NCBI RefSeq assembly: GCF_024519435.1
Contig: NZ_JALJRZ010000001.1
Span: forward strand, 930,001-994,000
Source: Terrabacter sp. Ter38
Lineage (GTDB): Bacteria > Actinomycetota > Actinomycetes > Actinomycetales > Dermatophilaceae
DNA: 64,000 nucleotides
Direction: 5' to 3'
This document shows, in pieces, positions 7,231 to 58,953 of this stretch (the stretch's first letter is position 1; each line of letters opens with the position of its first letter). Below the pieces are notes generated by a model. That model was not told where the DNA came from, ran no database searches, and saw nothing but the letters and a program-made list of their open reading frames with translations. Made by a program: the position numbers and the translations under genes.

Positions 7231-9372
7231 CTACCCCGCGGATTCCTTTGCCGCAGAACGGCTTTCGATGAGTTCTTGCGGATCGGCGCCGGCCAGGATG
7301 GCGAGGACGTCGCTGCCGTACTGGTCGAGCTTCCGCGCGCCGACGCCGCTGATGACCGACAGACCACCTTCGTCGGAGGGCGCGTGCTCGGCGATCGCGG
7401 TGAGCGTCGCGTCGGTGAAGACGACGAATGCCGGCACGCTCGCCTCGCGCGCGACGGCGCGGCGCCACGTGCGCAGCCGCTCGAACGTCTCCTCGTCGTA
7501 GGTGGGCGGACAGTCGTCGCAGCGGCCGGTCTTGCGCTGCGCCGCGGAGACGAGCTCGGCGCCACAGCCGCGGCAGTGCGCGAGCGGCGCCACCTTCGGC
7601 GCGGACCGCTTGGACCCGCCCGACCTCGCTTCGCTGCGCGCACCCTGGCCGAGGATGTCGGCCGCCGGCGCCAGGAACCGCGAGACGCGGCGCGTGGCCC
7701 GGGCTCCGGGCGTGCGGGCACCGGACCACGACAGGAAGAGCTGCTTGCGGGCGCGCGTGAGCCCGACGTAGAGCAGGCGCCGCTCCTCCTCGACAGCGTC
7801 GGGGCCCTCGGCCATCGAGATGGGCATGAGGCCGTCGGAGGCGCCGACCAGGAAGACGGTGTCCCACTCCAGGCCCTTGGCGGCGTGCAGGCTGGCGAGC
7901 GTCACGCCCTGCACGGTCGGGGCATGCTGCTCGGCCGCCCGCCGCTCGAGCTCGGCGACGAGCTCGGGCAGCCGGGCCTCCGGAGCCGCTGCGGCGATGT
8001 CGTCGGCGAGCGTCGCGAGCGCGGTCAGCGACTCCCACCGCTCACGGGTGGCCCCGCTACCGGACGGGGGCTCGTGCGACCAGCCCGCGCCGGTGATGAC
8101 GTCGCGGGTGATCTCACCGAGCGGCTTCTCGCCGTCGTCGCTCCGGGCGGCGCCGCGCAGGAGCAGGACGGCGTCGCGCACCTCCTTGCGGGCGAAGAAG
8201 CGGTCGCCACCCCGCACGAGGTAGGCAACCCCGGCGTCCGTGAGAGCCGACTCGAACGCCTCGGACTGGGCGTTGGTGCGAAAGAGGACGGCGATCTCGG
8301 CCGCCTCGTGGCCGCCCGCGACGAGCGTGCGGATACGGTCGGCGACCGCGGCAGCCTCAGCCGGGTCGTCGGGATGGCTCGTCAGCTCCGGCGCGGGACC
8401 CGGCTCGGACTGCGCGAGGAGGCGCACCGCCCCGTCGCGCGCCGCCTGGGTGCCCGACGCGACGATGGTGTTGGCGAGCCCGACGATCTGCGGTGTGGAG
8501 CGGTAGTTGCGCACGAGGCGCACGACCTGCGCGCCCGGGAACCGCTGGGGGAAACCGACGAGGTGTCGCGGGCTGGCCCCGGTGAAGGAGTAGATCGTCT
8601 GGGCCGGGTCGCCGACGACGCAGAGGTCCTTGCGCTCCCCCAGCCACTGGTCGAGGAGCCGCTGCTGGAGGTCGTTGACGTCCTGGTACTCGTCGACGAC
8701 GAACTGGCGGTACTGGCCGCGCACGGTGCGGGCGATGTCTTCGCGCTCGTCGAGGATGCCGACGGTCAGGAGCAGGACGTCCTCGAAGTCGATGACGCCG
8801 CGGCGCTGCTTGACGTCCTCGTACGCCTCGAAGAGGCGTGCCATGGCCGTGAGGTCGAGGCCCGGAGGCTCACGGCGCTGCTCACGCGCGCGGGCGGCGT
8901 ACGACTGCGGCGTCAGCAGGTTGACCTTGGCCCACTCGATCTCGGCGGCGAGGTCGCGGACGGTGGTGCGGTCGAACTGCATGCGCAGCCGGCTCGCGGC
9001 CTCGGCGACGGCCGCCGCCTTGTGGCTCATCACCTCGGGGGCCGCGCCGCCGATGGCCTGCGGCCAGAAGAAGTGCAGCTGCCGCAGCGCAGCGGCGTGG
9101 AACGTGCGGGCTTGGACGCCCTGCACCCCGAGCCCGCGCAGGCGCGTGCGCATCTCGCCCGCGGCGCGGGCCGTGAAGGTCAGCGCGAGCACCCGCTGCG
9201 GCTGCTGCGCACCCGAGTGGACGGCATACGCGATGCGGTGGGTGATGGCGCGCGTCTTGCCCGTGCCGGCACCCGCGAGGATGCACAGGGGGCCCGGCGG
9301 GGCCATCGCGACCTCGCGCTGCTCCGGGTCGAGCCCGGCGAGGATCTCGTCGGCGGACGGTACTGCGCTCAG
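7231..9372 (-). CDS. uvrD2: ATP-dependent DNA helicase UvrD2, SF1 with HRDC domain
   Basis: The protein has the N-terminal LAGLDPEQREVA, Walker A GAGTGKT, Walker B VDEYQDVN, GDPAQTIYSF, NYRST and the C-terminal helicase motifs. After these comes the UvrD2-specific four-cysteine module (CRGCG ... CDDC) and a C-terminal HRDC domain starting near SVISGVGARKLDQYG. UvrD2 is a 3'-5' helicase in genome maintenance, essential in mycobacteria. The conserved N-terminus extends upstream of the first ATG (9306), but no ATG, GTG or TTG is available there. A CTG at 9372 overlaps the ppk2 stop (CTGA) and gives the usual family length (713 aa). I annotate from that CTG; the ATG at 9306 would delete the Q-motif. 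Confidence 0.88.
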   Translation of the reverse strand: MSAVPSADEILAGLDPEQREVAMAPPGPLCILAGAGTGKTRAITHRIAYAVHSGAQQPQRVLALTFTARAAGEMRTRLRGLGVQGVQARTFHAAALRQLHFFWPQAIGGAAPEVMSHKAAAVAEAASRLRMQFDRTTVRDLAAEIEWAKVNLLTPQSYAARAREQRREPPGLDLTAMARLFEAYEDVKQRRGVIDFEDVLLLTVGILDEREDIARTVRGQYRQFVVDEYQDVNDLQQRLLDQWLGERKDLCVVGDPAQTIYSFTGASPRHLVGFPQRFPGAQVVRLVRNYRSTPQIVGLANTIVASGTQAARDGAVRLLAQSEPGPAPELTSHPDDPAEAAAVADRIRTLVAGGHEAAEIAVLFRTNAQSEAFESALTDAGVAYLVRGGDRFFARKEVRDAVLLLRGAARSDDGEKPLGEITRDVITGAGWSHEPPSGSGATRERWESLTALATLADDIAAAAPEARLPELVAELERRAAEQHAPTVQGVTLASLHAAKGLEWDTVFLVGASDGLMPISMAEGPDAVEEERRLLYVGLTRARKQLFLSWSGARTPGARATRRVSRFLAPAADILGQGARSEARSGGSKRSAPKVAPLAHCRGCGAELVSAAQRKTGRCDDCPPTYDEETFERLRTWRRAVAREASVPAFVVFTDATLTAIAEHAPSDEGGLSVISGVGARKLDQYGSDVLAILAGADPQELIESRSAAKESAG

Positions 9373-10208
9373 GAGCTATCACCCTTCGAGGTGGCCAGCA
9401 CGCTCGCGGCGTGGTCCGGCACGTAGTTCTGCTCGTGCTGCGGCGGGCGCTCGTAGCCACGCGGAGCGGGGCGCTCGGGCACGGGCGGCACGACGGGCGC
9501 CACCGCGGCGTGCGGGATGGAGCTGAGCAGGTGGTGCATGACGTTGACCCGCGAGCGCCGCTTGTCCTCCGACTCGACGACGTGCCACGGCGCCCAGTCG
9601 GTGCTCGTCGCGGCCATCATGACGTCCTTGGCCTCGGAGTAGTCCTCCCACCGGGTGATGGACTCGAGGTCCATCGGCGAGAGCTTCCACTGGCGCATGG
9701 GGTCCTTGGCGCGGCTGCGGAACCGGCGCTCCTGCTCGACGTCGGAGACGCTGAACCAGTACTTGCGCAGGACGACTCCGTCATCGACGAGCATCTGCTC
9801 GAAGAGCGGCGCCTGCTCGAGGAAGCGGGCGAACTGCTCGTCGGTGCAGAAGCCCATGACCCGCTCGACGCCGGCGCGGTTGTACCAGGACCGGTCGAAG
9901 AGCACGATCTCGCCGGCAGCGGGCAGGTGGGCGATGTAGCGCTGGAAGTACCACTGCGTCCTCTCGCGGTCGGTCGGCGCCGGGAGGGCCGCGATCCGGG
10001 CGACGCGAGGGCTGAGGTACTCGGTGATCCGCTTGATCGCCGACCCCTTGCCGGCGGCGTCACGCCCCTCGAAGACGACGACGACCCGCTGACCCGTCGC
10101 ACGCACCCACTCCTGGAACGCGACGAGCTCGGCCTGCAGTCGACGGACCTCGGTCTCGTAGACGTCGAGGTCCATCCTCGGGGATCGTTTTGCGCCGCGC
10201 TTGGCCAT
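9369..10208 (-). CDS. ppk2: Polyphosphate kinase 2 (PPK2 family)
   Basis: The 279-aa protein has the PPK2 Walker A GRDAAGKGSAIKRI, the lid arginines, and Walker B FDRSWYNRAGVERVMGF. It uses polyphosphate to phosphorylate nucleotides (or the reverse); the short single-domain form suits a nucleoside-diphosphate acceptor, but I cannot fix the class. A Pro/Glu-rich tail of ~40 residues follows the kinase domain. ATG 10208 has AAGGA 8 nt upstream. Its stop overlaps the likely CTG start of uvrD2, so the two are translationally coupled. In the mycobacterial locus I recall no ppk2 at this point, so it looks inserted between uvrD2 and mycoredoxin. Confidence 0.9.
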   Translation of the reverse strand: MAKRGAKRSPRMDLDVYETEVRRLQAELVAFQEWVRATGQRVVVVFEGRDAAGKGSAIKRITEYLSPRVARIAALPAPTDRERTQWYFQRYIAHLPAAGEIVLFDRSWYNRAGVERVMGFCTDEQFARFLEQAPLFEQMLVDDGVVLRKYWFSVSDVEQERRFRSRAKDPMRQWKLSPMDLESITRWEDYSEAKDVMMAATSTDWAPWHVVESEDKRRSRVNVMHHLLSSIPHAAVAPVVPPVPERPAPRGYERPPQHEQNYVPDHAASVLATSKGDSS

Positions 10209-16200: not shown

Positions 16201-16753
16201 CGGCCTGGATGACCGTCGCCTCGCTCTTGACGACGTCGTCCATCGGCCCGTCCCAGCGTGACACCGCCTCGGCCGCGAGCTGCCACGCCCCGGCCTCGGT
16301 GAGGATGCGGAACTCCGGCTCGATGCCCACCCGGAGGGCGTGCTCGCGGACGAGCCGGCCGGCATACGCGTGGTAGGTGGAGACGGTGGGCGTGCCGCCG
16401 AGCACCTCGGCACCCGTGCCGTCGTCGGCGGGCGGCGTCCAGATGCCGGCCCGCTCGAGACCACGCAGGCGCTTGGCGATGCGCTGGGAGAGCTCGGCCG
16501 CAGCCTTGCGGGTGAAGGTGAGGCCCAGCACCTGGTCGGGGTCGACGAGGCCGTTGGCGACGAGCCAGACGACCCGGGCCGCCATCGTCTCGGTCTTGCC
16601 CGAGCCTGCACCGGCGACGACGAGCAGGGGGCGGGCGCCCGCCTCGATGACGGCGGCCTGCTCGGGGGTGGGCGGCGGCATCTCGAGCGCCGCGGCGATG
16701 TCGAGAGCGCTGTGGCGCATCGTCGTCTCCGGGCGTGCCTCGGTCGTCGTCAC
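13262..16753 (-). CDS. adnB: AdnB subunit of the AdnAB helicase-nuclease
   Basis: The 1163-aa protein has an N-terminal SF1A motor (Walker A VAGAGSGKTETM, Walker B VLLDEFQDT, GDPNQSIYGW, VHAAKGLEWDVV, YVALTRAR) and a C-terminal RecB-like nuclease (GRVDAVFPRDDGG ... VVDWKTG). AdnAB is the actinobacterial end-resection machine working in double-strand-break repair. As the second gene after adnA it corresponds to AdnB, the lead ATPase motor. An Ala/Asp/Thr-rich stretch of roughly 90 residues interrupts the middle and is probably a disordered insertion. GTG 16753 overlaps the adnA stop (GTGA). Confidence 0.9.
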   Translation of the reverse strand: MTTTEARPETTMRHSALDIAAALEMPPPTPEQAAVIEAGARPLLVVAGAGSGKTETMAARVVWLVANGLVDPDQVLGLTFTRKAAAELSQRIAKRLRGLERAGIWTPPADDGTGAEVLGGTPTVSTYHAYAGRLVREHALRVGIEPEFRILTEAGAWQLAAEAVSRWDGPMDDVVKSEATVIQAVMALAGEMAEHVRTPAEVMDHLDAVLTRLDALPDGEGRGSLTAARDAIAVLRERRTVLPIVEAFLALKRERESLDFADQMAIAARLTRSVPAVGEIERERFRAVLLDEFQDTSEAQLELLRSLFHHPGVALTAVGDPNQSIYGWRGASATTLLRFPSEFGGDEGPADVLPLSTSWRNDSVILDAANAVAAPLATEHVRPLRPRPGAGVGTIEVARLETAEEEADHLAAWIAAHWFSPSGRRTGRSAAVLCRRRSTFPVVLEALRRRQLPVEVVGLGGLLVTPEVSDLVAALWVVQDPSRGDQLMRLLTGPVVRLGAADLAGLWAWARELHQRTPRAGTPTSTAPDRAGAGATVAPGRPGSGTSGGEPPTGDAAPADDGVTEAASADEAEASADDRRGSDLAADSADTATLVEALDDLPRPGWTGRDGARIGDEALARLHDLGDVVRRLRRLTALPLVDLVAEAEVAIGLDIEVLSRPEHTASTARVHLDAFADVAARYATTADRPTLSGFLSWLDAARDQERGLDAVHTESDADAVQVLTVHAAKGLEWDVVAVPTLVEGVFPAHGATAVAPVAHSEPTAFACSGDVKDKGWLIGLDSLPYDLRGDRAGLPHLDWRGVPDRKALSAAIDAFVLDGGRHAVAEERRLAYVALTRARASMLLTTHLWGAAKKTLSVPSRFLTEVEETLPGSVVRTAWAPDPEPVLDDKGQASAPTNPHLAVPISQLWPHDPMGQRRAGLLDAHRRIATLVDAGPTVPQGDPRVDDLRILLAEQAARRSRDESVVDVPRHLSASAVVSLARDAEAFAMSLRRPMPSPPAVAARQGTAFHAWIEEHYSRAAFVDLLDLPGSADEGAADDGDLDAMKERFLASEWADRIPEEIELSIETVIDGIAVRGRVDAVFPRDDGGWTVVDWKTGARPTGRDATVRALQLGAYAVAFARLRGVDPSLVDAAFYYAGEGVTVRPDLPGEAALVDLLRTLPE

Positions 16754-19700
16754 AGGGCGTCTCCCTCGGGCTGGACGGGGCACGACGACCGCACCGGGCA
16801 CGTCTCGCAGGCCTTGCCCTGCGCAGCCCGGAACTCGGCCGCCCCCATCCCCTCGGCCGTCTCCTGAACGAGCGTCCGTGCCCACGTCGGGTCGTCGCTG
16901 CTCGCGAGGGGCGGCTGTGGCAGCACGCTCGGCTTGAGTCCGGAGAGCCCTCCCTTGCCGATGAAGGCGAGCGCCGCCCCGGCACTGCGGTCTCCGAGCG
17001 CGGGGAACCCACCTTCCTCGACGGCCACCTGGTAGGCCCCGAGCTGGCCGTGGTGGGCCAGCTCGGCCTTGGTCGGCTTGGACTTGCCGGTCTTGAGGTC
17101 GACGATGCGCAGGCGGCCCTCGGCGTCGCGCTCGATGCGGTCGACGCGCCCGGCCACGACGGCGCGCCCCACCTCGACCCGGAAGTCGGACTCGATCCCG
17201 ACGCGCTCCCAGTCGCGCTCGGCGGCGGACCGGTAGGCCACGAACCGCGCCACCATGTCGTGCGCCTCCTGGTGGGTGCGGTCGGTGACCCAGCCGGGCT
17301 TGAGCCCGAGGCGTCCCCACCGTGCGTCGACCTCGTGCTTCAGCTCCTCGAGCGGCGCGTCGGGCAGCTCGGCGACGATGTCGTGGACGAAGGTGCCGAC
17401 GGAGGCTGCGCCGAGGGAGACGCCCTCGCCACCGACCGACGTGAGGAACCAGCGCAGCCCGCACTCGGCGAAGTAGGTGACCTTCGACGGCGACACGGGC
17501 ACGGGCTCGTCGGGTCGGCGCACGGGACGCTCGCTCGTGACCGACCGGAGCGCCCACCACGAGGTCGGGTCGGCCCCGCGCACGCCCTCGCGCGCCGCGG
17601 CGGCGAGCAGGTTGAGGGCCGGCTCGGCGACGCCGGGGTCGGGGCTGACGGCCTCGCGCCTCAGCTCTCCGACGAGCCCCGGCAGGGTCATGGTGCGCGC
17701 CACCTCGGAGTGCGGGCGCACCTCGTCGGCCAGACGCGTCGTGGCAGGCGGGTCGACGAGGTCGAGGTAGACCGACGGCTGCTCGTCCTCGTTGCCGACG
17801 GCAGTGACCACCAGCCGCTCGGTGGCGCGGGTGACGGCGACGAGGAAGAGGCGCGTCTCGTCGTAGCGCACCGCGGCCTGGGCGGCGCGGAAGCCGAGCG
17901 GCCGCTGGGCGACGACGTCGACGAGGTCCTCGGACCCGAGGACCGAGCCGCGCAGGCGCAGGTCGGGCCACACGCCCTCCTGCACGCCCGCGACGACGAC
18001 GATGCGCCACTCCCGGCCCGCGGCGGTCTGCGGCGTCAGCAGCGCGACCCGGCCACCGGACTGACCGCCGACGAGCAGGGTGTCGCCGGGGACGTCCTGG
18101 CCCTGGATGTGCTCGAGGAACTTGTCGGGGCCGGCGGTCGGCAGCCGGTCGACGAAGGCGCCCGCCGCGTCGAAGAGCGCGAGCACGGCGTCGAGATCGC
18201 GGTCGGCCCGCTCGCCCGACGTGCCTCCGGAGAGCGCCTGCCGCCGCCACCCGTCGGCAACCCCCGCGCCCTGCCAGATGGCCCACAGCACGGACTCGGC
18301 CGTGACCCCGCGCGCCCACCGGCCGTCGTCGGCGACGCGCGCCGCCGCGGCACCGGCGGCGAGCGCCGTCGCGATGCGTTCGGCGGCCCGCGCTGTCGAC
18401 CCCAGCATCCGGGCGCGGGGCTGCGACTGGAGCAGCTCGGCGAGCAGCTCGTCGCTGGACCGCCCACCGCCGGAGGCGAGCTCGTCCTGTCGCAGCAGCC
18501 ATCGCAGGCGCCGCAGCCCGACGGTGTCGCTCCCGCCGACGGGGGACAGCACGAGGTCGGCGGCCCGCACGGCGTCGATGACGTGGGTGTCGCCGCGGTG
18601 CTCGGCGCGGGCGATGGCGATGCTCTCGTCGAGCAGGTGCAGCAGCGGGCGCACCGCGCTCTCGTCGCGGACCGGAGTCTCGGCGCTGCCGGCCTGGACC
18701 GGCACCCCGGCCTGCCCGAGCAGGCGACGCATCGCGTCGGCGCGGCCCGATCCGCGCACGATGACGGCCATGTCGGTCCAGGGCACGCCCTCGACGAGGT
18801 GCGCCCGGCGCAGCAGCGCCGCGACGTGAGCCGTCTCCTGCGCGGCGGAGCGCAGCAGGGCGACCTCGACGGTGCCGCGCGACGGGTCTCCGGTCGCGGA
18901 CGTCATCCGGCGTTGCTCGCCGCCGCCGAGCGCCCCGATGCGCCGCGAGACGCGGTCGGCCACCCCCATCATGTCCGTGCCGAGCCGGTGGGACCGATCG
19001 AGCACGACGGTCTCACTGAGACCCTCACCGGCGTCGTCGATGAGATCGAAGAGCCCGCCGACGAAGCGGGGGTCGCGGCCACTCCCCGCGAGGTCGCTCC
19101 AGCCATCGGCGAGGAAGCGCGGGTCGGCGCCGCGGAAGGTCTGGACGGCGACGTCGGGGTCGCCGAGGAGGACGACCCGAGGGCCACCCGCACGGGCGAC
19201 GACGCGCAGCAGCCGCGCCGCTGCCGACGTCAGCTCCTGGGCCTCGTCGACGACGACGAGGCGGATGCGCTCGTGGAGCCGGTCGAGTGCCGACGGGTCG
19301 TCGTCGAGCAGCTCGGCCACCGCGGTGAGCACCCAGGCGGGGTCGTAGGAGCCGTGCCGGCTGAACGAGGTGACCTGGTCGTACTCGCGCAGCACGTGCG
19401 CCGCGGCAGCCCACTCGGGCCGCTCGTGCTCGTCGGCGAGGCGAGCGAGACCGTCGGGGCCCTGCCCCAGCTCGACCGAGCGCATGAGCAGGTCGCGCAG
19501 CTCGTTGCGGAAGCCGCGGGTCGTCAGCGCCTCGCGCAGCTGCTCGGGCCACACCGGCCCGCGCACCTCTCCCGAGGCGTGCCCGGCGAGCAGGTCGCGC
19601 AGGATGACGTCCTGCTCGGGGCCGTTGAGCAGCCGAGGCGATGGGTCGCCGCGCAGCGCCGCCTCGGCCCGGAGCACTCCGAAGCCGAAGGCCTGCCACG

Positions 19701-19986
19701 TCCGCGCGAGCGACTCGGTGGACGTGCCGCCGAGCCGCGCCGTGACCTGCTGGCGCAGCTCGCCGGCCGCGCTCCGGCTCGAGGTGAGCACGAGGCACGA
19801 GTCGGCCCGCAGGCCCTGCCGGCGCACGGCGTCGACGACGAGCTCGACCGCGAGGGTCGACTTGCCGGTGCCCGGCCCGCCGAGGACACGCAGCACCCGG
19901 GCCGAGGAGTCGAGCGCGGCCTGCTGCCGCTCGCCGAGCCGCACCTGCGCCGGGACGAGAGCGGGAGCTCGACGGAGGATGACCAC
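16750..19986 (-). CDS. adnA: AdnA subunit of the AdnAB helicase-nuclease
   Basis: The 1078-aa protein has a diverged SF1 motor (Walker A GGPGTGKST, VVVDEAQELT) and a C-terminal nuclease (AGRVDRIERDAEG ... VDLKTGKSK). Four cysteines, one in ECGLRWF and three in CETCPVRSSC, match an Fe-S cluster that pins the nuclease fold. It pairs with AdnB, encoded directly downstream with a 4-nt overlap. The start is GTG 19986; the following VILRRAPALVPAQVRLGERQQAALD-type N-terminus suits the family. No clear SD, so it may be leaderless. Confidence 0.9.
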   Translation of the reverse strand: MVILRRAPALVPAQVRLGERQQAALDSSARVLRVLGGPGTGKSTLAVELVVDAVRRQGLRADSCLVLTSSRSAAGELRQQVTARLGGTSTESLARTWQAFGFGVLRAEAALRGDPSPRLLNGPEQDVILRDLLAGHASGEVRGPVWPEQLREALTTRGFRNELRDLLMRSVELGQGPDGLARLADEHERPEWAAAAHVLREYDQVTSFSRHGSYDPAWVLTAVAELLDDDPSALDRLHERIRLVVVDEAQELTSAAARLLRVVARAGGPRVVLLGDPDVAVQTFRGADPRFLADGWSDLAGSGRDPRFVGGLFDLIDDAGEGLSETVVLDRSHRLGTDMMGVADRVSRRIGALGGGEQRRMTSATGDPSRGTVEVALLRSAAQETAHVAALLRRAHLVEGVPWTDMAVIVRGSGRADAMRRLLGQAGVPVQAGSAETPVRDESAVRPLLHLLDESIAIARAEHRGDTHVIDAVRAADLVLSPVGGSDTVGLRRLRWLLRQDELASGGGRSSDELLAELLQSQPRARMLGSTARAAERIATALAAGAAAARVADDGRWARGVTAESVLWAIWQGAGVADGWRRQALSGGTSGERADRDLDAVLALFDAAGAFVDRLPTAGPDKFLEHIQGQDVPGDTLLVGGQSGGRVALLTPQTAAGREWRIVVVAGVQEGVWPDLRLRGSVLGSEDLVDVVAQRPLGFRAAQAAVRYDETRLFLVAVTRATERLVVTAVGNEDEQPSVYLDLVDPPATTRLADEVRPHSEVARTMTLPGLVGELRREAVSPDPGVAEPALNLLAAAAREGVRGADPTSWWALRSVTSERPVRRPDEPVPVSPSKVTYFAECGLRWFLTSVGGEGVSLGAASVGTFVHDIVAELPDAPLEELKHEVDARWGRLGLKPGWVTDRTHQEAHDMVARFVAYRSAAERDWERVGIESDFRVEVGRAVVAGRVDRIERDAEGRLRIVDLKTGKSKPTKAELAHHGQLGAYQVAVEEGGFPALGDRSAGAALAFIGKGGLSGLKPSVLPQPPLASSDDPTWARTLVQETAEGMGAAEFRAAQGKACETCPVRSSCPVQPEGDAL

Positions 19987-53343: not shown

Positions 53344-54213
53344 TCACCAGGGGTAGAGGAAGGCACCCCGTCCCGCCGACTTCGGACCCTCGAGCATCGA
53401 GCTCTGGCTGAAGCCCTGCTCCTTCAGCGCGGTCGACACTGCCGACGTCAAGGCCCGCCGGCTCCGGCCGGGGTCGCGGGTGAGCTCGTCGAGGAAGACG
53501 TGGGTGAAGGCCCCGTTGGGGCGCCCGTCGAACGTCGCGTCCCTCGCGGTCTGATCGGGACGGCACGCCGAGTGGACGACCGCCCGCAGGGGCACCGACC
53601 GGTAGGGGCGGCGCCGGGCGTCGGCCTCTCGACGCGGGGCCGCCGGAGCGAGCCGTCGGGCCAGACCGGTCTGCACGGGGCTCGGCAAGAAGCGCGGGCG
53701 GCCCTGGGCCGGGCCGCCCGCGCCGGAGCCAGCGGGCCCCTCGACGTCCCTCAGGCCGGTGCCGCTGTGGCACGTGTCGAGCAGCACCTCGAGCAGCACC
53801 CCGCGGGGCACGCTGCCCATGAGGTCGCGCAACTCGTCGTCGAGGATGATGGTGTCGCGGTCCCAGCCGTCGGCGCCGGCCCGCAGGTCGGCGCAGGCCA
53901 ACGCCTCGTCGAGGCCGTCCGGCTCGTCGTCGACGTCGCCCGGCAGGTTCGGCACCTGGACTCCGTGGGTCGAGATGCTGAAGACGACCGTGTCGCCTGG
54001 ACGCGATGCGGACACGAGGCGGGTGAGCCGCGACCACACCGCTTCCTTGGTCGCCTTCCGGTCAGAGAGCACGACGATGTCGGAGGCCACGAAGTGCAGC
54101 GCGGTGAGCGACCCGGCCATGTCATGGGCGTCGTTGACGCAGCCGCGCAGCCACGCCGTCTCGGGTAGAGACGCGAACTCGTTGATGCCGACGCACAGGG
54201 CGGACCGTGTCAC
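53344..54213 (-). CDS. Metacaspase-like (peptidase C14) protease, distal copy
   Basis: The 289-aa protein is almost entirely caspase fold. Catalytic His83 lies in SISTHGVQVP and Cys148 in LLDTCHSGTG. Between them DDEPDGLDEALACAD is the acidic loop of metacaspases that can bind calcium. ACRPDQTARDATFDG and NGAFTHVFLDEL complete the core. The segment 155-215 is Arg/Pro-rich and diverged from its neighbour, a possible self-cleavage linker. No adaptor domain or signal peptide is present. GTG 54213 lies 22 nt after the stop of the proximal copy. A terminator-like CACGCG/CGCGTG stem lies beyond the stop. Confidence 0.9.
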   Translation of the reverse strand: MTRSALCVGINEFASLPETAWLRGCVNDAHDMAGSLTALHFVASDIVVLSDRKATKEAVWSRLTRLVSASRPGDTVVFSISTHGVQVPNLPGDVDDEPDGLDEALACADLRAGADGWDRDTIILDDELRDLMGSVPRGVLLEVLLDTCHSGTGLRDVEGPAGSGAGGPAQGRPRFLPSPVQTGLARRLAPAAPRREADARRRPYRSVPLRAVVHSACRPDQTARDATFDGRPNGAFTHVFLDELTRDPGRSRRALTSAVSTALKEQGFSQSSMLEGPKSAGRGAFLYPW

Positions 54214-54235
54214 GGCGCGGCCAGGCCCGTTGCGT

Positions 54236-55111
54236 TCACCACAGCTGTCCGAAGGCGACCTTCTTGGCCTTGACCGGGCCCTCGAGCGTCGAGCGCTGGC
54301 TGAAGTCGCCGTCCTTGAGCCCGGCCGTCACGGTGCGGAGCAGATCGGTGCGGGACGCCGTCGGGCTGGCCTTCATGGCCTTGAGGAAGAGGTAGGTGAA
54401 GGCCCCGTTGGAGCGGCCCTCGAACGTCGCGTCCGACGCCGTCTGGTTGGGCTTGCACGCCGCGAAGAGGACGGGCTTCGAGGCCGTGGCGCGGCTCTTC
54501 GTCAGCTCGACGAGGGCCTTGCGGTCGACGGTGCGCACGGGCGTGACGGCCCGGATGGACCGGGTCTGCTCGAGACCTCGAGGAGTCGGCGGCGGAAGGT
54601 AGCGCGGCTTGCGGCCGAGGAGCTGCGCCTGGAGGATCTCGTCGAGGTCCTTGAGGCCGGTCCCGCTGTGGCACGTGTCGAGCAGCACCTCGAGCAGGAC
54701 ACCGGAGGGCACCCGGGTGAAGAGGTCACGCAGCTCGTCGTCGACGATGACGGTGTCGCGGTCCCACTGGTCGCCCTTCTGACGGATGTCGTGGCACGCG
54801 AAGGCCTCGTCGAGACCGTCCGGCTCGTCGTCGCCACCGGGCTCGTTGGGCACCTGCGTGCCGTGGCTGGAGAAGGTGAAGATCAGGTGGTCGCCGGCCT
54901 TCGCGGTGTCGACGAGCGTCGTCAGGGCCGTCATCACGGCCTTCTTCGTCGCGCCGGCATCGGTGAGCACCGTCGTCGCGCGGGCCGTGAAGCCGAGGGG
55001 CCGCAGCGCCTTGGAGATGTCGTTCGCGTCGTTGACGCAGCCGTTGAGCCAGCTCGTCTGCGGCAGCGACTCGAACTCGTTGATCCCCACGCACAGAGCC
55101 CTGCTTGCCAT
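54236..55111 (-). CDS. Metacaspase-like (peptidase C14) protease, proximal copy
   Basis: The 291-aa protein parallels the distal copy throughout: His83 in FSSHGTQVPNE, acidic DDEPDGLDEAFACHD, Cys147 in LLDTCHSGTG, then AACKPNQTASDATFEG and NGAFTYLFLKAM. The region between residues 155 and 215 differs from the other copy and is Lys/Arg-rich, a likely processing site. Both proteases are bare catalytic domains, so regulation should come from a partner. ATG 55111 has AAGGAA upstream. It begins 61 nt after the CHAT gene stop on the same strand. Confidence 0.92.
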   Translation of the reverse strand: MASRALCVGINEFESLPQTSWLNGCVNDANDISKALRPLGFTARATTVLTDAGATKKAVMTALTTLVDTAKAGDHLIFTFSSHGTQVPNEPGGDDEPDGLDEAFACHDIRQKGDQWDRDTVIVDDELRDLFTRVPSGVLLEVLLDTCHSGTGLKDLDEILQAQLLGRKPRYLPPPTPRGLEQTRSIRAVTPVRTVDRKALVELTKSRATASKPVLFAACKPNQTASDATFEGRSNGAFTYLFLKAMKASPTASRTDLLRTVTAGLKDGDFSQRSTLEGPVKAKKVAFGQLW

Positions 55112-55172
55112 GGCCGTTCCTTCCTTCTCGGAACCCCTCGGGTGAGCGGGTTCGACTGGGATGTATGCCGTT

Positions 55173-58100
55173 TCACACTGTCTCGAGGACCGCGTCGGGT
55201 CTCGCGTACACGACGTAGGCGAGCCAGGTCGGGTCGCCCGCGTCCCGCGCGGCCGCCCGGGCGAGCGCACTCGCCCGGGACATCTGCGTGCCCTTGAGCA
55301 GCTCCTCGTACAGCGTCTCGACGAAGACCCGAGCCGGCTCCTCCTGGACGGACCACAGGCACGAGACGAAGGCCGACGCTCCGGCGTCGAGGAACGCCTT
55401 GGCGAAGCCGCCCACCGTCGTGAAGAGCTCGCCGGACCGTCCGGTCTGGCAGGCGTTGAGGACGACGATGGGACCGACGCTGTCGGGTCCGGTCCAGTCG
55501 AGGTTCTGGGAGACGTCGGTCGAGCTGAGGTACTGCTCGCGCACGGCGGAGCCGCGCCGCTGGCCCTTGAGCAGCACCTTCGCCTCGGCGATGTCGTCGG
55601 AACGTGCCGCCCCGTGGCCCGAGAAGTGAAGCAGGTCGAAACCGCCGCCGCGCAGGAGCCGCTCGACGCCGTTCGGGGTGGCCGTCACGGCCTTGGCGCC
55701 GAACCGGTCCTTGAGGTAGCCGGCCTCGGCCGCACCGACGTCGTTCTTGAACATCGGGTTGGCGTAGACGGGACAGATCGACCGTGCGTGGCCCCGGCGC
55801 ACGCGGACGGCCCGGGGCGGGAAGCTCCCGAGCTGCCAGCGCACGAGCCCACCGGAGGCCAGGAAGCGTGGAGTGGCGCCACGCTTGCCCCGAGCGGGCT
55901 TGAGGTGGACGAGCTCCCACGGCACGAACGGCTCGTCGGTGTAGACGATGAGGTCGTGCACGAGGTCGCGGTGCTCCCAGAGGTAGGCCTGCATGTCCTC
56001 GGGAAAGAACTGGTCGAAGAGCATGGTGCCGGTGTTCTGCAGCTGCGACATCCGCTGGCGCGACGTGAGGTCGGGATCCTTGATGACCCGCTCCACCTCG
56101 GCGATCCGGTCGCGCACGAACTCGTCGCGCCCGAGGATCGGCGCCGACTCGAAGACCCGCTCGACCTCGCCCGGCACGAGCCGGAGCGCATAGCTGTAGA
56201 CGCGCTCACCCGTGACCCGCCGGCACTCGACGATGTCGAGGCAGGGCAGACCGTCGAGCTCTGGGGCGTCGATGCCGGCGTGGACCGTGGCGGTGACGGG
56301 CGTCGGGGCGACCATCCCCGCAGCGGCTGCGGTCGACTCCAGGGTGACCGTGGCGACGGGCACCCAGCCCTGTCGCAGGACGACGGAGACGCCGACAGGC
56401 CCGGGCGCCAGGGCACGCACCCGGAAGGTCAGCTCGCTGGCCCAGTCGCCGCTCGGCAGGCCGAAGACCTTGGCGTCGGTCTCGAGGACCTGCACGTTGT
56501 CCTTGGCGTAGACCTGCACGCTGATCGGGCGCTCGGCGTCGACGTGGACCGTCCTCGAGACGTGAACCGTGCCCTCCGTCGGTGCCAGCGTCTGCCGTGC
56601 CAGCCGGACCCGCACCGTGGCGTCGGCACCCGGGGACACCGTGGAGGGCATCTCCGCCGCGAGCTCGGCCTCCGTCGTGCCCTCGAGAGGACTCGTGGGT
56701 CCAGCGCTCGGCGGCTTCATCCGGTCGCGGCGTGCCACCTTCTTCGCCGTCGCCTTCTTCGCCGTCGCCTTCTTCGCCGTCGCCCTCTTGGCCGTCGCCG
56801 TCTTCGCCGTCGCGCCCCTGCCGCCCGCCATCGACGGCGGCTCCGCCCGGGGGCCGGTGGATGGTCGCGCCGGCGGGCGGGCATCCGTGCCCGGAGGCCT
56901 GGTCGCGGACGGCGGACGGGCGGCCGTCGGCGGTCGGGCTGCGGTGGTCGGCGCGTCCACCTCGGCCATCTCGAGTCCACGCTCGTCACCACCGCCGTCG
57001 GCGCCGAGCACCGGACCCGCGGTCATCCACCCGGGCAGGTGCGCCTCCTCGTCGGACGCGCCGAGCCCGAGCGGCAGCCACTGCGAGATCGCGCCGATGA
57101 CCGAGAGCTGTGAGAAGTAGTTGACGTGGTAGACGACGTCGTTGGTGCCGAGGGCGAACGTGTCCCGCACGTAGCCGCCGCTCGGTAGGCCGATCGCCGA
57201 CATCGATTCGGTGTCGACGACGAGGTCGTTGCGCCCCTTGAAGATCCCGTCGACGAATCCCTCGGCGAGACGGACCGCGAGCTCGCGGGGGAACTCGGGC
57301 GGGTTGTGGTGGTCGTCGAAGAGGGACACGTGGAAGTCGGACGAGACGACGTACCAGCTCGTCCCGGGCCGGGGCTGGCCCGGCTGGTCCTCGTTGAGGG
57401 TCGTGACGAAGGGCCCGTCGGGCGTCATGGCGGCGAGGCCGGGCACGCCGTCGTTGCCGGCGGCGTACGACACGAGGTACTTCACGAGCGCGCCGACGCC
57501 ACGGACGACACCGCTGACCACGGCTGCGAAGGGGGCACCACCGGGCACGAGCGAGAGACCGGCCGCGGTCACCATGACGAGGTTCGTGTAGAGGTCGACG
57601 AGGTCGTGCCAGCGCTCGGGGTCGGCGAGGTGGGTGCCGCCGTTGGTGGAGGCCACGAAGACGATGGAGTCGACGGCGACGCGCAGTCCCGCACCCGGCA
57701 GCACCGACTCGACGAACGACCGCGTGACCAGCCCGCCGCGGCTGTGCGTGATGACGTCGAGGACGAGCTCGCCGTCGTGGGGCGCGAGCAGCGCGAGCAG
57801 GTCGCGGGCGTTGCGCTCCGGGTCGACGCTCAGCGTGCGGTGGTCGAAGCCGATGACGGCGTCGTACGCGGACACGAGGGTGTCGACGAAGCCCTCCGCG
57901 CCGGGTGTGACGGCGAGAGCCCCGAAGGCGCTGGTCGTCGAGGAGAACGTGCCGTGGACGAGGAGCAGGACCCGTGCCGCACGGTCCGTGGGGAGACCCA
58001 CCTCCGCGAGCGAGCCGACCGGCTTCCACGCGTCGAGTGCTCCCCCCGTGACGTGGACGAGCCCGGTGCGCACGCCTGACTCGAGTCGCTCGACGACCTT

Positions 58101-58646
58101 GTCGACGATGACGGGCGCCGCGAAGCGCAGCACGATCGCCTGGAGAACGCCGTGGGCGAGGTCGCCGAGCAGCCCGCGGTCGGCCGCTGCCGCGCCAGGT
58201 CCGTCGAGGCCTCGTGATCGCGGGCGCGGACGCCGCGGGCGCTCCGGTTGCACCGACAGGGCGAACGACACCGTGCGGGGGCCGGGGTCGATCGACCGCG
58301 TGCGCTCGGCAGCGTCGACCGGCAGGTGCCACGAGTAGACCCCGTCGCGTTCGAGCAGGACGACGGCGTCGTTGCCGGCCGGCACATCGACGTCGAGCTT
58401 CACGGTGGCCGCCCTGTTGGCCGGCGCCGGACCACCAAGATCGCGAGATCGCTGTGGTGTCAGGTCGATTCGATCGACGACCACGAAGTCGTCGGTGCGC
58501 AGGGCCTCGACGAGGGCGGCCCGCTCGGCCGCCCGCCGGTCGCCGGTCGGCAGATCCCTGTCGGTGCGGTCGGTCGCGGCGGACGCGTCGTAGCCGCGGG
58601 GCGCGCGCACGCGCACCGCTCCCCCACCGAAGGACGCGGACGGCAT
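55173..58646 (-). CDS. Alpha/beta-hydrolase - CHAT protease fusion protein
   Basis: The 1157-aa protein has several parts. Residues ~1-215 include a beta-rich segment and a Pro/Arg linker. Residues ~220-545 are an alpha/beta hydrolase of the lipase/PGAP1 kind, with oxyanion HG (231-232), nucleophile Ser302 in ITHSRGG, likely Asp474 in NDLVVD and His507 in VVYHVNY. Residues ~565-645 are a Pro- then Lys/Ala/Thr-rich linker with five repeats. Residues ~675-775 look like a beta-sandwich. Residues ~880-1157 are a CHAT caspase-like protease with His1011 in HFSGHGAA and Cys1066 in LNACQTGRSGE. It is probably the first gene of an operon with two metacaspases. ATG 58646 has GGAGGGAG upstream. There is no signal peptide, so it should act in the cytoplasm. 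Confidence 0.9.
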   Translation of the reverse strand: MPSASFGGGAVRVRAPRGYDASAATDRTDRDLPTGDRRAAERAALVEALRTDDFVVVDRIDLTPQRSRDLGGPAPANRAATVKLDVDVPAGNDAVVLLERDGVYSWHLPVDAAERTRSIDPGPRTVSFALSVQPERPRRPRPRSRGLDGPGAAAADRGLLGDLAHGVLQAIVLRFAAPVIVDKVVERLESGVRTGLVHVTGGALDAWKPVGSLAEVGLPTDRAARVLLLVHGTFSSTTSAFGALAVTPGAEGFVDTLVSAYDAVIGFDHRTLSVDPERNARDLLALLAPHDGELVLDVITHSRGGLVTRSFVESVLPGAGLRVAVDSIVFVASTNGGTHLADPERWHDLVDLYTNLVMVTAAGLSLVPGGAPFAAVVSGVVRGVGALVKYLVSYAAGNDGVPGLAAMTPDGPFVTTLNEDQPGQPRPGTSWYVVSSDFHVSLFDDHHNPPEFPRELAVRLAEGFVDGIFKGRNDLVVDTESMSAIGLPSGGYVRDTFALGTNDVVYHVNYFSQLSVIGAISQWLPLGLGASDEEAHLPGWMTAGPVLGADGGGDERGLEMAEVDAPTTAARPPTAARPPSATRPPGTDARPPARPSTGPRAEPPSMAGGRGATAKTATAKRATAKKATAKKATAKKVARRDRMKPPSAGPTSPLEGTTEAELAAEMPSTVSPGADATVRVRLARQTLAPTEGTVHVSRTVHVDAERPISVQVYAKDNVQVLETDAKVFGLPSGDWASELTFRVRALAPGPVGVSVVLRQGWVPVATVTLESTAAAAGMVAPTPVTATVHAGIDAPELDGLPCLDIVECRRVTGERVYSYALRLVPGEVERVFESAPILGRDEFVRDRIAEVERVIKDPDLTSRQRMSQLQNTGTMLFDQFFPEDMQAYLWEHRDLVHDLIVYTDEPFVPWELVHLKPARGKRGATPRFLASGGLVRWQLGSFPPRAVRVRRGHARSICPVYANPMFKNDVGAAEAGYLKDRFGAKAVTATPNGVERLLRGGGFDLLHFSGHGAARSDDIAEAKVLLKGQRRGSAVREQYLSSTDVSQNLDWTGPDSVGPIVVLNACQTGRSGELFTTVGGFAKAFLDAGASAFVSCLWSVQEEPARVFVETLYEELLKGTQMSRASALARAAARDAGDPTWLAYVVYARPDAVLETV
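56739..56813. repeat. 15-bp tandem repeat, five copies
   Basis: Three identical CTTCTTCGCCGTCGC units and two variants encode KATAK-type repeats in the linker of the hydrolase-CHAT protein. The linker resembles Lys/Ala-rich histone H1-like tails and could bind nucleic acid or be length-variable. Confidence 0.9.
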
Positions 58647-58842: not shown

Positions 58843-58953
58843 ATGACCATCACGGCCCCGGGCATGCCCGCCCACATCTCTTCTTCCTTGGAGTTCTCTT
58901 GTCATCCAACGCTTTTCACGACGACGACCTCTCGGTCGTCGAGACCCGACTGA
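58843..58953 (+). CDS. 36-aa upstream ORF overlapping the RIO kinase start
   Basis: The frame MTITAPGMPAHISSSLEFSC... begins after AAGGAGGGTGAC, a near-perfect SD 5 nt from ATG 58843, and ends inside the kinase gene, overlapping it by 55 nt in another frame. The second half is rich in codons rare in this window (TCT, TTG, TGT, CAT, CCA, CTT). It may be a leader peptide coupling or limiting translation of the kinase, which itself starts at a weak TTG. Confidence 0.5.
   Translation: MTITAPGMPAHISSSLEFSCHPTLFTTTTSRSSRPD

Follow-up and report, generated by a model that had tools for sequence, protein, structure and literature searches.

Pairs of a caspase-superfamily protease and an alpha/beta-hydrolase have been described in the VMAP ternary conflict systems, in which VMAP proteins with a caspase domain always have an alpha/beta-hydrolase gene as a neighbor, and it has been suggested that both operate jointly (Kaur et al. 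2020, PMC7159879). In the Canu system it has been shown experimentally that a caspase activates a latent effector, a pro-nuclease (PMC12799240), and CHAT proteases act in regulated proteolysis both in Craspase, where Csx29 (TPR-CHAT) cuts Csx30 between residues 427 and 429 and deletion of M427 blocked the cleavage (PMC10028731), and in fungal CHAT-gasdermin two-gene clusters (PMC10197012). Here we have analyzed a locus of the soil actinobacterium Terrabacter sp. Ter38 that brings together an alpha/beta-hydrolase, a CHAT protease and metacaspase-like C14 proteases. It lies in a stretch of 64,000 nucleotides (contig NZ_JALJRZ010000001.1, positions 930,001 to 994,000; hereafter the window) and consists of three genes, abhCHAT, which encodes a hydrolase-CHAT fusion, and MC1 and MC2, which encode metacaspases (Table 1). 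The conserved unit is a pair, formed by abhCHAT and one metacaspase, in which the metacaspase could, tentatively, release the hydrolase by cutting a conserved linker motif.

Like the VMAP systems, this locus combines a caspase-superfamily protease with an alpha/beta-hydrolase, and TCAD7 (“ternary complex associated domain 7”) is found on one related CHAT partner (locus L076). It differs from them in that no VMAP-C match was found in the Ter38 genome (4.83 Mb), in that MoxR and vWA, searched by Pfam in the three proteins and not in the genome, are absent from these proteins, and in that abhCHAT fuses the hydrolase to CHAT, which is not mentioned in the available text of Kaur et al. (PMC7159879). 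The likeness to Canu consists of a caspase-family protease beside what may be a latent effector enzyme, and of possible gating via disordered insertions (PMC12799240); however, the effector here would be an alpha/beta-hydrolase instead of a metallo-beta-lactamase-fold nuclease (none was found by Pfam in the three proteins), and CHAT, a second protease, is fused to it. Unlike in Craspase and the CHAT-gasdermin clusters, no TPR, Cas or gasdermin was detected by Pfam in the three proteins, and CHAT is in cis with the hydrolase. Finally, sequence searches matched MC1 to the yeast metacaspase Mca1 (4f6o) over the p20 and p10 parts and to TbMCA2 (4afr) over the p20 part, with the GCxND, SxHG and DxCHSG motifs in common; unlike these two, the MC1 type is encoded with a hydrolase-CHAT protein or, in three genomes, fused to it.

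The original prediction, made from the DNA of the window, knew of no described system with this trio of genes. This holds for the exact unit, as neither a hydrolase-CHAT-metacaspase unit nor a VMAP-independent CHAT version of the pairing was found in the open-access literature among the matches listed, but not for the hydrolase-caspase pairing itself, which had already been published for VMAP (PMC7159879). All the domains of abhCHAT (DUF7379, DUF7362, DUF7363, and CHAT) are already defined in Pfam, and no paper naming any of the three DUFs or TCAD7 was found among open-access papers.

The abhCHAT-metacaspase pair and its insertion site

Counting each genome once, we obtained 18 unique abhCHAT orthologues including that of the window (L007 is the same genome as L070, and L017 the same locus as L065). 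Two loci were omitted. One of them, L010, is a short contig that starts at MC1 and contains nothing of abhCHAT; the other, L075, encodes a relative of the hydrolase type with 46% identity over residues 43-526 and lacks both CHAT and C14. A metacaspase adjoins abhCHAT or is fused to it in all 18 orthologues (18/19 if L075 is included), and only the window and L007 have a second one (2/18), which rules out the trio that had been predicted as the conserved unit. A grouping by chance, the outcome against which the prediction was to be tested, is contradicted by this constant association and by the conservation of the catalytic residues. In fact, Ser302, Asp474, and His507 of the hydrolase are conserved in the 18 abhCHAT rows of the alignment, His1011 and Cys1066 of CHAT in the 17 rows having this domain (L018 has none), and the His/Cys dyad of C14 in 31 of 31 rows, including the MC2 copies and Arthrobacter relatives; three more distant open reading frames (ORFs; L020-L022, 79-82 bits) scored below the limit of 150 and do not enter this last count.

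The metacaspase is fused in frame to abhCHAT in three of the 18 orthologues. L017 (Humibacillus xanthopallidus DSM 21776, 1529 aa) and L067 (1525 aa) are single frames with all five domains, and L018 (6096-8885, H. xanthopallidus KV-663) is a frame of 929 aa that contains DUF7362, DUF7379, and C14 and has lost CHAT. The junction of this last fusion falls in Thr/Ala/Lys repeats, so that CHAT may have been lost by a repeat-mediated deletion or may be missing through an assembly slip.

MC2 is a lineage-specific additional copy of MC1 that stands outside the core. Relatives of MC1 were located at 24 loci, and in the tree MC2 forms a long branch among 12 metacaspases of Terrabacter and its close relatives, which together make up a supported clade; the forks nearest to MC2 are weakly resolved. 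Between the window and L007, the ratio of nonsynonymous to synonymous substitution rates was 0.14 for abhCHAT, 0.145 for MC1, and 0.36 for MC2, so that none of the three is a chance ORF; the values for the flanking genes were 0.04 (ACAD, acyl-CoA dehydrogenase) and 0.155 (RIO, RIO kinase). In the L007 copy of MC2 (8899-9771) the last ∼50 codons align more closely with MC1 than with MC2 of the window, which probably reflects gene conversion between the tandem copies.

Of 60 genomes of the family, 15 have the full-length locus, Terrabacter sp. Ter38 included, and none of 38 other genomes of the order has it. The only member of the genus that lacks it, G002, is an assembly 74% complete, and the nearest named relatives of MC1 belong to Terrabacter and Terracoccus (Intrasporangiaceae). 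RIO is located on one flank in 18/18 orthologues and ACAD on the other in 17/18 (the L016 contig ends before it), with further called ORFs between the operon and these flanks at some loci. RIO itself was present in 41 of 59 sampled family genomes, 33 of which have no known abhCHAT locus, and eight of these 33 were compared. In seven of the eight Intrasporangiaceae stretches RIO is head to head with an adjoining acyl-CoA dehydrogenase gene and no abhCHAT or C14 match was found in the 14 kb of each one; the 14 kb of the eighth (L106) showed no ACAD. As the site that the operon occupies between RIO and ACAD is empty in seven of eight relatives without the pair, the two genes of the pair probably entered it together and have since been transmitted vertically under purifying selection, and loss of the pair in other relatives is possible. 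The RIO kinase is not supported as a functional partner because of its presence in those 41 genomes and because it adjoins ACAD where the operon is absent.

The MC1 relatives L020-L029, nine from Arthrobacter and one from Cryobacterium, have no abhCHAT match within 8 kb on either side, and so a metacaspase of the MC1 type does not need abhCHAT everywhere. A conserved protein of ∼546 aa is encoded near these metacaspases (for example, L027:8836-10476, minus strand). It carries an HEVTH motif, presumably resembling that of zinc metallopeptidases, and two examples of it had no Pfam match.

Related arrangements in other bacteria

In relatives, 20 loci matched DUF7379 strongly (E-value of at most 1e-16), and at all of them except L075 the same or the next gene encodes CHAT and/or C14; these 19 are not independent cases because 15 of them belong to the orthologous abhCHAT family. 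Sampling 396 genomes of the phylum added seven strong loci, of which six also have CHAT and/or C14, the exception being L098. Two DUF7379 matches at 1e-9 to 1e-10 (L102 and L103) were accompanied by no match to the CHAT or C14 queries. The order and joining of the parts vary among these bacteria. A C14-hydrolase fusion adjoins CHAT at L078 (genome G047) and, as CHAT-TPR, on a plasmid of Anabaena sp. 90; a CHAT gene is followed by a separate hydrolase gene at six loci (L076, L077, L095, L096, L097, and L099), with TCAD7 over the cut-off on the CHAT partner of L076, just under it on that of L096, and not found in the other four; hydrolase-CHAT-TPR-S fusions are encoded at L079 and L100; and hydrolase-CHAT fusions occur also in Paracoccus and in Ruegeria, in the latter beside a SIR2-AAA ATPase gene. 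At L101 a hydrolase gene at the contig end is convergent with C14 and CHAT-TPR genes. The comparison of plasmids covered five of the 17 plasmid records with matches. A Hymenobacter plasmid (L081:2835-9275) has in a row TerB-family, CHAT, sub-threshold hydrolase-like, and CHAT genes; a recombinase gene comes next, and genes for a DNA methyltransferase and a helicase lie beyond it. The Anabaena plasmid stretch contains genes for an AbiEii-type toxin and for an integrase.

Two observations were made apart from these sets. At L075 (8750-11876) a DUF7379-type hydrolase gene without adjacent CHAT or C14 is followed by an overlapping gene for an astacin-like metallopeptidase, possibly an alternative protease partner. 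Terrabacter sp. Ter38 itself (L137:6753-10655, contig C51) encodes a second C14 protein, of 275 aa, and 3 nt downstream of its gene lies that of a CHAT protein of 1023 aa; close relatives of this C14 protein were found in G036 (77%) and G029 (73%) among 30 genomes searched.

The linker motif, a possible mechanism and its alternatives

That the hydrolase, CHAT, and C14 are functionally linked as one evolving unit is well supported by their adjacency, their fusion, the shared insertion site and their recurrence elsewhere. In abhCHAT the hydrolase domain is joined to the CHAT half by a disordered linker, whose length ranges from 38 to 137 residues among orthologues (24 in L018) and whose composition varies too. 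Within this hypervariable segment the motif R[DGE][LI]xM occurs 18 times in 14 of 18 linkers, with two copies apiece in L061 and L067 and three in L016, and it has no match elsewhere in the 18 orthologue proteins. Shuffling the linkers 2000 times, which ignores relatedness among the orthologues, gave the motif in 0.03 proteins on average and in no more than two. When one member per close group was taken, it was present in nine of 12 linkers (3000 shuffles, mean 0.018, maximum 1) and the shorter R[DGE][LI] in 11 of 12 (shuffle mean 0.844, maximum 5), and R..L..M (8/12) was the top-ranking spaced residue triple by the measure used. Seven of the 18 linkers have at most five basic residues each; of the 20 that these seven contain in total, 11 are contributed by the Arg of R[DGE][LI]. 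The original prediction had looked instead to variable Arg/Lys-rich segments as the target of cleavage; as a general target they fail, since the Lys-rich part of the linker is missing in several orthologues that retain the metacaspase (zero Lys in L014, L016, L019, L060, and L061). A likeness of the p20-p10 loop of the metacaspases to the linker motif was also discounted because its basic residue is not constant.

The simplest reading of R-x-L-x-M is that it is a candidate site for cleavage or docking of the metacaspase. For TbMCA2 we take His158 and Cys213 to be the catalytic residues. The 31 C14 rows all have the motifs GCxND, S[ST]HG, and DTCHSG, which match by spacing Cys92, Asp95, Ser156, and Asp211 of the TbMCA2 pocket (PMC4357240), and the conservation of these motifs together with the match of MC1 to Mca1 is the reason why the metacaspase would be expected to cut after Arg or Lys. 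The predicted release of the hydrolase by a metacaspase thus gains some support from a conserved motif in a hypervariable linker and from residues of the S1-pocket type. We propose as a tentative, though plausible, model that the pair is a self-contained, protease-gated hydrolase module in which the metacaspase would cut abhCHAT at R-x-L-x-M and so free the hydrolase. A signal would reach the CHAT half or DUF7362/DUF7363 and the proteases would be switched on; the metacaspase would then cleave the linker at the motif (R556 in the window); the freed hydrolase, of lipase/esterase type, would attack a lipid or other ester; and this attack would arrest or kill the cell. Inferred in this way are the specificity of the metacaspase, the cleavage of the motif, the direction of activation, the lipid substrate, the growth arrest or death and any role in phage defence. 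In a broader form, which we regard as doubtful, this would be an undescribed execution system built on a caspase-activated lipase: cutting at a dedicated R-x-L-x-M, the metacaspase would release a lipase-type hydrolase from inhibition by the CHAT half, with two caspase-related proteases in series and with no NLR, gasdermin, or nuclease. The related hydrolase-CHAT-C14 sets of actinobacteria, cyanobacteria, alphaproteobacteria, and bacteroidetes would then represent modular variants of the same system. Should a metacaspase indeed unlock a lipase-like enzyme, pore-formers and nucleases would be joined by one more type of caspase-executed effector in bacteria, and DUF7379, DUF7362, and DUF7363 would gain testable roles. 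The natural split, paired and fused versions would allow direct tests of the proteolytic order, and the conserved motif leads to a prediction at the level of a single residue.

Besides the relatedness that the shuffles ignore, several observations weigh against this model. The motif has no match in the L017 and L018 linkers and lacks Met in L074 and L060; W-M-T patterns, second to R..L..M, form another conserved stretch in six of 12 linkers; and the linker of the window has 21 basic residues, so that one Arg need not be special. The AlphaFold2 model of the whole abhCHAT is of low confidence (mean predicted local distance difference test score of 48.5). The strong DUF7379 loci L075 and L098 have no CHAT or C14 partner, and, as other lineages encode hydrolase and CHAT separately, the joining of both and the cutting between them are not needed in every lineage. 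Finally, the neighbors of the operon are ordinary genes and its site is fixed, a setting that does not favor phage defence. The proximity to a defence island that had been proposed for checking was not seen in the PADLOC scans of the window and of the near neighbors. The window scan, which covered 50 of 51 called ORFs with MC1 trimmed to its own start, gave RTasHel, GajB, and DpdF (one or two ORFs each) and a generic caspase (two) among the matches listed (25 of 116 families). One of the GajB-type ORFs (16750-19986) encodes a UvrD-helicase/PD-(D/E)XK protein ∼33 kb away from the operon, and it was the only one with a PADLOC match at 1e-10 when 10 ORFs of the window, six of them near the operon, were rescanned singly. 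No gasdermin was found in the three proteins by Pfam, in the six near neighbors by PADLOC, or among the listed window matches.

The order of events could also be the reverse, with CHAT acting first by cutting its own linker, for example after the Met of the motif, and/or by activating the metacaspase as executioner, the hydrolase being a regulator or lipid sensor. CHAT and hydrolase share one polypeptide in 17 of 18 orthologues, which would make cleavage in cis sterically easy, the motif conserves Met besides Arg, and there is a precedent in Csx29, whose cleavage of Csx30 needs M427 (PMC10028731). Nevertheless, we consider this rather unlikely: L018 retains hydrolase and C14 without CHAT, an assembly slip being possible there, and the hydrolase triad is invariant in the 18 orthologues and therefore argues for catalysis over regulation only. 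The module could instead serve homeostasis or development from the chromosome, and not death or immunity, by turnover of proteins or lipids under stress, in agreement with its one fixed site inherited under purifying selection, its ordinary neighbors without defence-island signal in the scans made, and the case made in a review for a contribution of metacaspases and orthocaspases to homeostasis (PMC5756287). To such a role we give a limited chance, since the presence of the locus is patchy (15/60 family genomes) and it probably arrived by insertion, and since its relatives lie near recombinase, methyltransferase, and helicase genes on the Hymenobacter plasmid, near AbiEii-type toxin and integrase genes on that of Anabaena, and next to the SIR2-AAA ATPase gene on that of Ruegeria.

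The published rule of a caspase-hydrolase pairing in VMAP systems (PMC7159879), together with TCAD7 on the CHAT partner of L076 and just under the cut-off on that of L096, of the six such loci, raises the question of whether the pair is a reduced, stand-alone derivative of a VMAP/MoxR/vWA protease-hydrolase pair and still works with a MoxR-vWA switch whose genes lie at another place in the genome. This derivation seems improbable, as the Ter38 genome has no VMAP-C match and seven sampled VMAP stretches, which may lack caspases, gave no hit to home-made hydrolase and C14 profiles; a direct link to the VMAP ternary systems gained no support from these two results. No MoxR, vWA, or VMAP was present in the six hydrolase and CHAT neighborhoods among the matches listed (25 of 97 Pfam families; 58 of 86 ORFs). 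Least credible of all is that unrelated neighbors are held together by shared synteny alone, an explanation already disfavored and in our opinion extremely improbable. RIO and ACAD do flank the locus as well, and RIO is present in 41/59 family genomes irrespective of the operon, but synteny alone is at odds with the in-frame fusions in three genomes, with the insertion site shared between RIO and ACAD, and with the renewed association of the same domains in other phyla.

Features of the locus

The coordinates are collected in Table 1. The ORF calls, Pfam and the alignments confirmed that the three genes are co-directional, with gaps of 61 nt between abhCHAT and MC1 and of 22 nt between MC1 and MC2, and that they have the catalytic residues originally assigned to them.

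Table 1. Genes, domains, and motifs of the locus, in coordinates of the window.
Feature	Coordinates	Strand	Description
abhCHAT	58646-55173	minus	1157 aa, ATG start; DUF7362/alpha-beta-hydrolase (DUF7379)/linker/DUF7363/CHAT
MC1	55111-54236	minus	291 aa, ATG start; metacaspase-like C14 protease, H83/C147
MC2	54213-53344	minus	289 aa, GTG start; C14 protease, H83/C148; fast-evolving tandem duplicate of MC1
DUF7362 N-terminal domain of abhCHAT	58122..58625	minus	Residues 8-175 (Pfam)
Alpha/beta-hydrolase domain of abhCHAT	57060..58079	minus	Residues 190-529; Ser302 (codon 57741-57743), Asp474, His507
Hypervariable linker of abhCHAT	56658..57065	minus	Residues 528-663; low confidence in AlphaFold2 model
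Linker motif R556-G-L-E-M560-A-E (R-x-L-x-M)	56961..56981	minus	Candidate metacaspase cleavage/docking site
Ala/Thr/Lys-rich linker repeat	56727..56813	minus	∼Residues 612-640; kept in part of the orthologues
DUF7363 of abhCHAT	56340..56657	minus	Residues 664-769; predicted all-beta
CHAT region of abhCHAT	55176..55961	minus	Residues 896-1157; Pfam match 988-1132
CHAT dyad	His1011 codon 55614-55616; Cys1066 codon 55449-55451	minus	
MC1 S1-pocket-type residues			C25, D28, S81, D145; sequence motifs

The hydrolase part of abhCHAT belongs to the alpha/beta-hydrolases (DUF7379) by its profile match (238 bits over residues 227-418; cut-off 33), its fold and its Ser-Asp-His triad, and it contains hydrophobic windows at ∼residues 349-392. 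The CHAT match (PF12770) reached 77.5 bits against a cut-off of 24, which places this region in the CHAT family, and Peptidase_C14 matched MC1 with 81.8 and MC2 with 76.3 bits (cut-off 21.4), which places both in the metacaspase family. They do not belong to the EACC1-associated caspases (NF047832), with 31 and 23.4 bits against a curated NCBIfam cut-off of 140. In PADLOC a generic caspase model matched MC1 and MC2, and abhCHAT had only two weak BovA matches (∼10 bits). DUF7362 exceeded its cut-off in one of 296 genomes of the phylum sample, Terrabacter sp. Ter38 itself, and in two of 297 of the order sample, Ter38 and G023 of the same family. There was a weak match in G676, and those in G501, G540, and G607 were discarded as ORFs antisense to what appears by sequence to be a fatty-acid oxidation gene.

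A scan of the locus for promoters and terminators, limited to sigma-70 and simple-terminator patterns, found none, and the alignment of upstream regions yielded no operator assignment. Two stretches, L061 and L111, have no short ORF that we could find 5' of RIO. In the window the RIO-kinase gene is overlapped at its start by an ORF of 36 aa on the plus strand (58843-58953), which starts with MTITAPGMPAHIS and has a good ribosome-binding site. Short ORFs similar to this one are located 5' of RIO in L006, L008, L009, L014, and L065, and less similar ones in the operon-less L106-L110, L112, and L113; the 36-aa ORF is possibly a leader peptide of the RIO gene.

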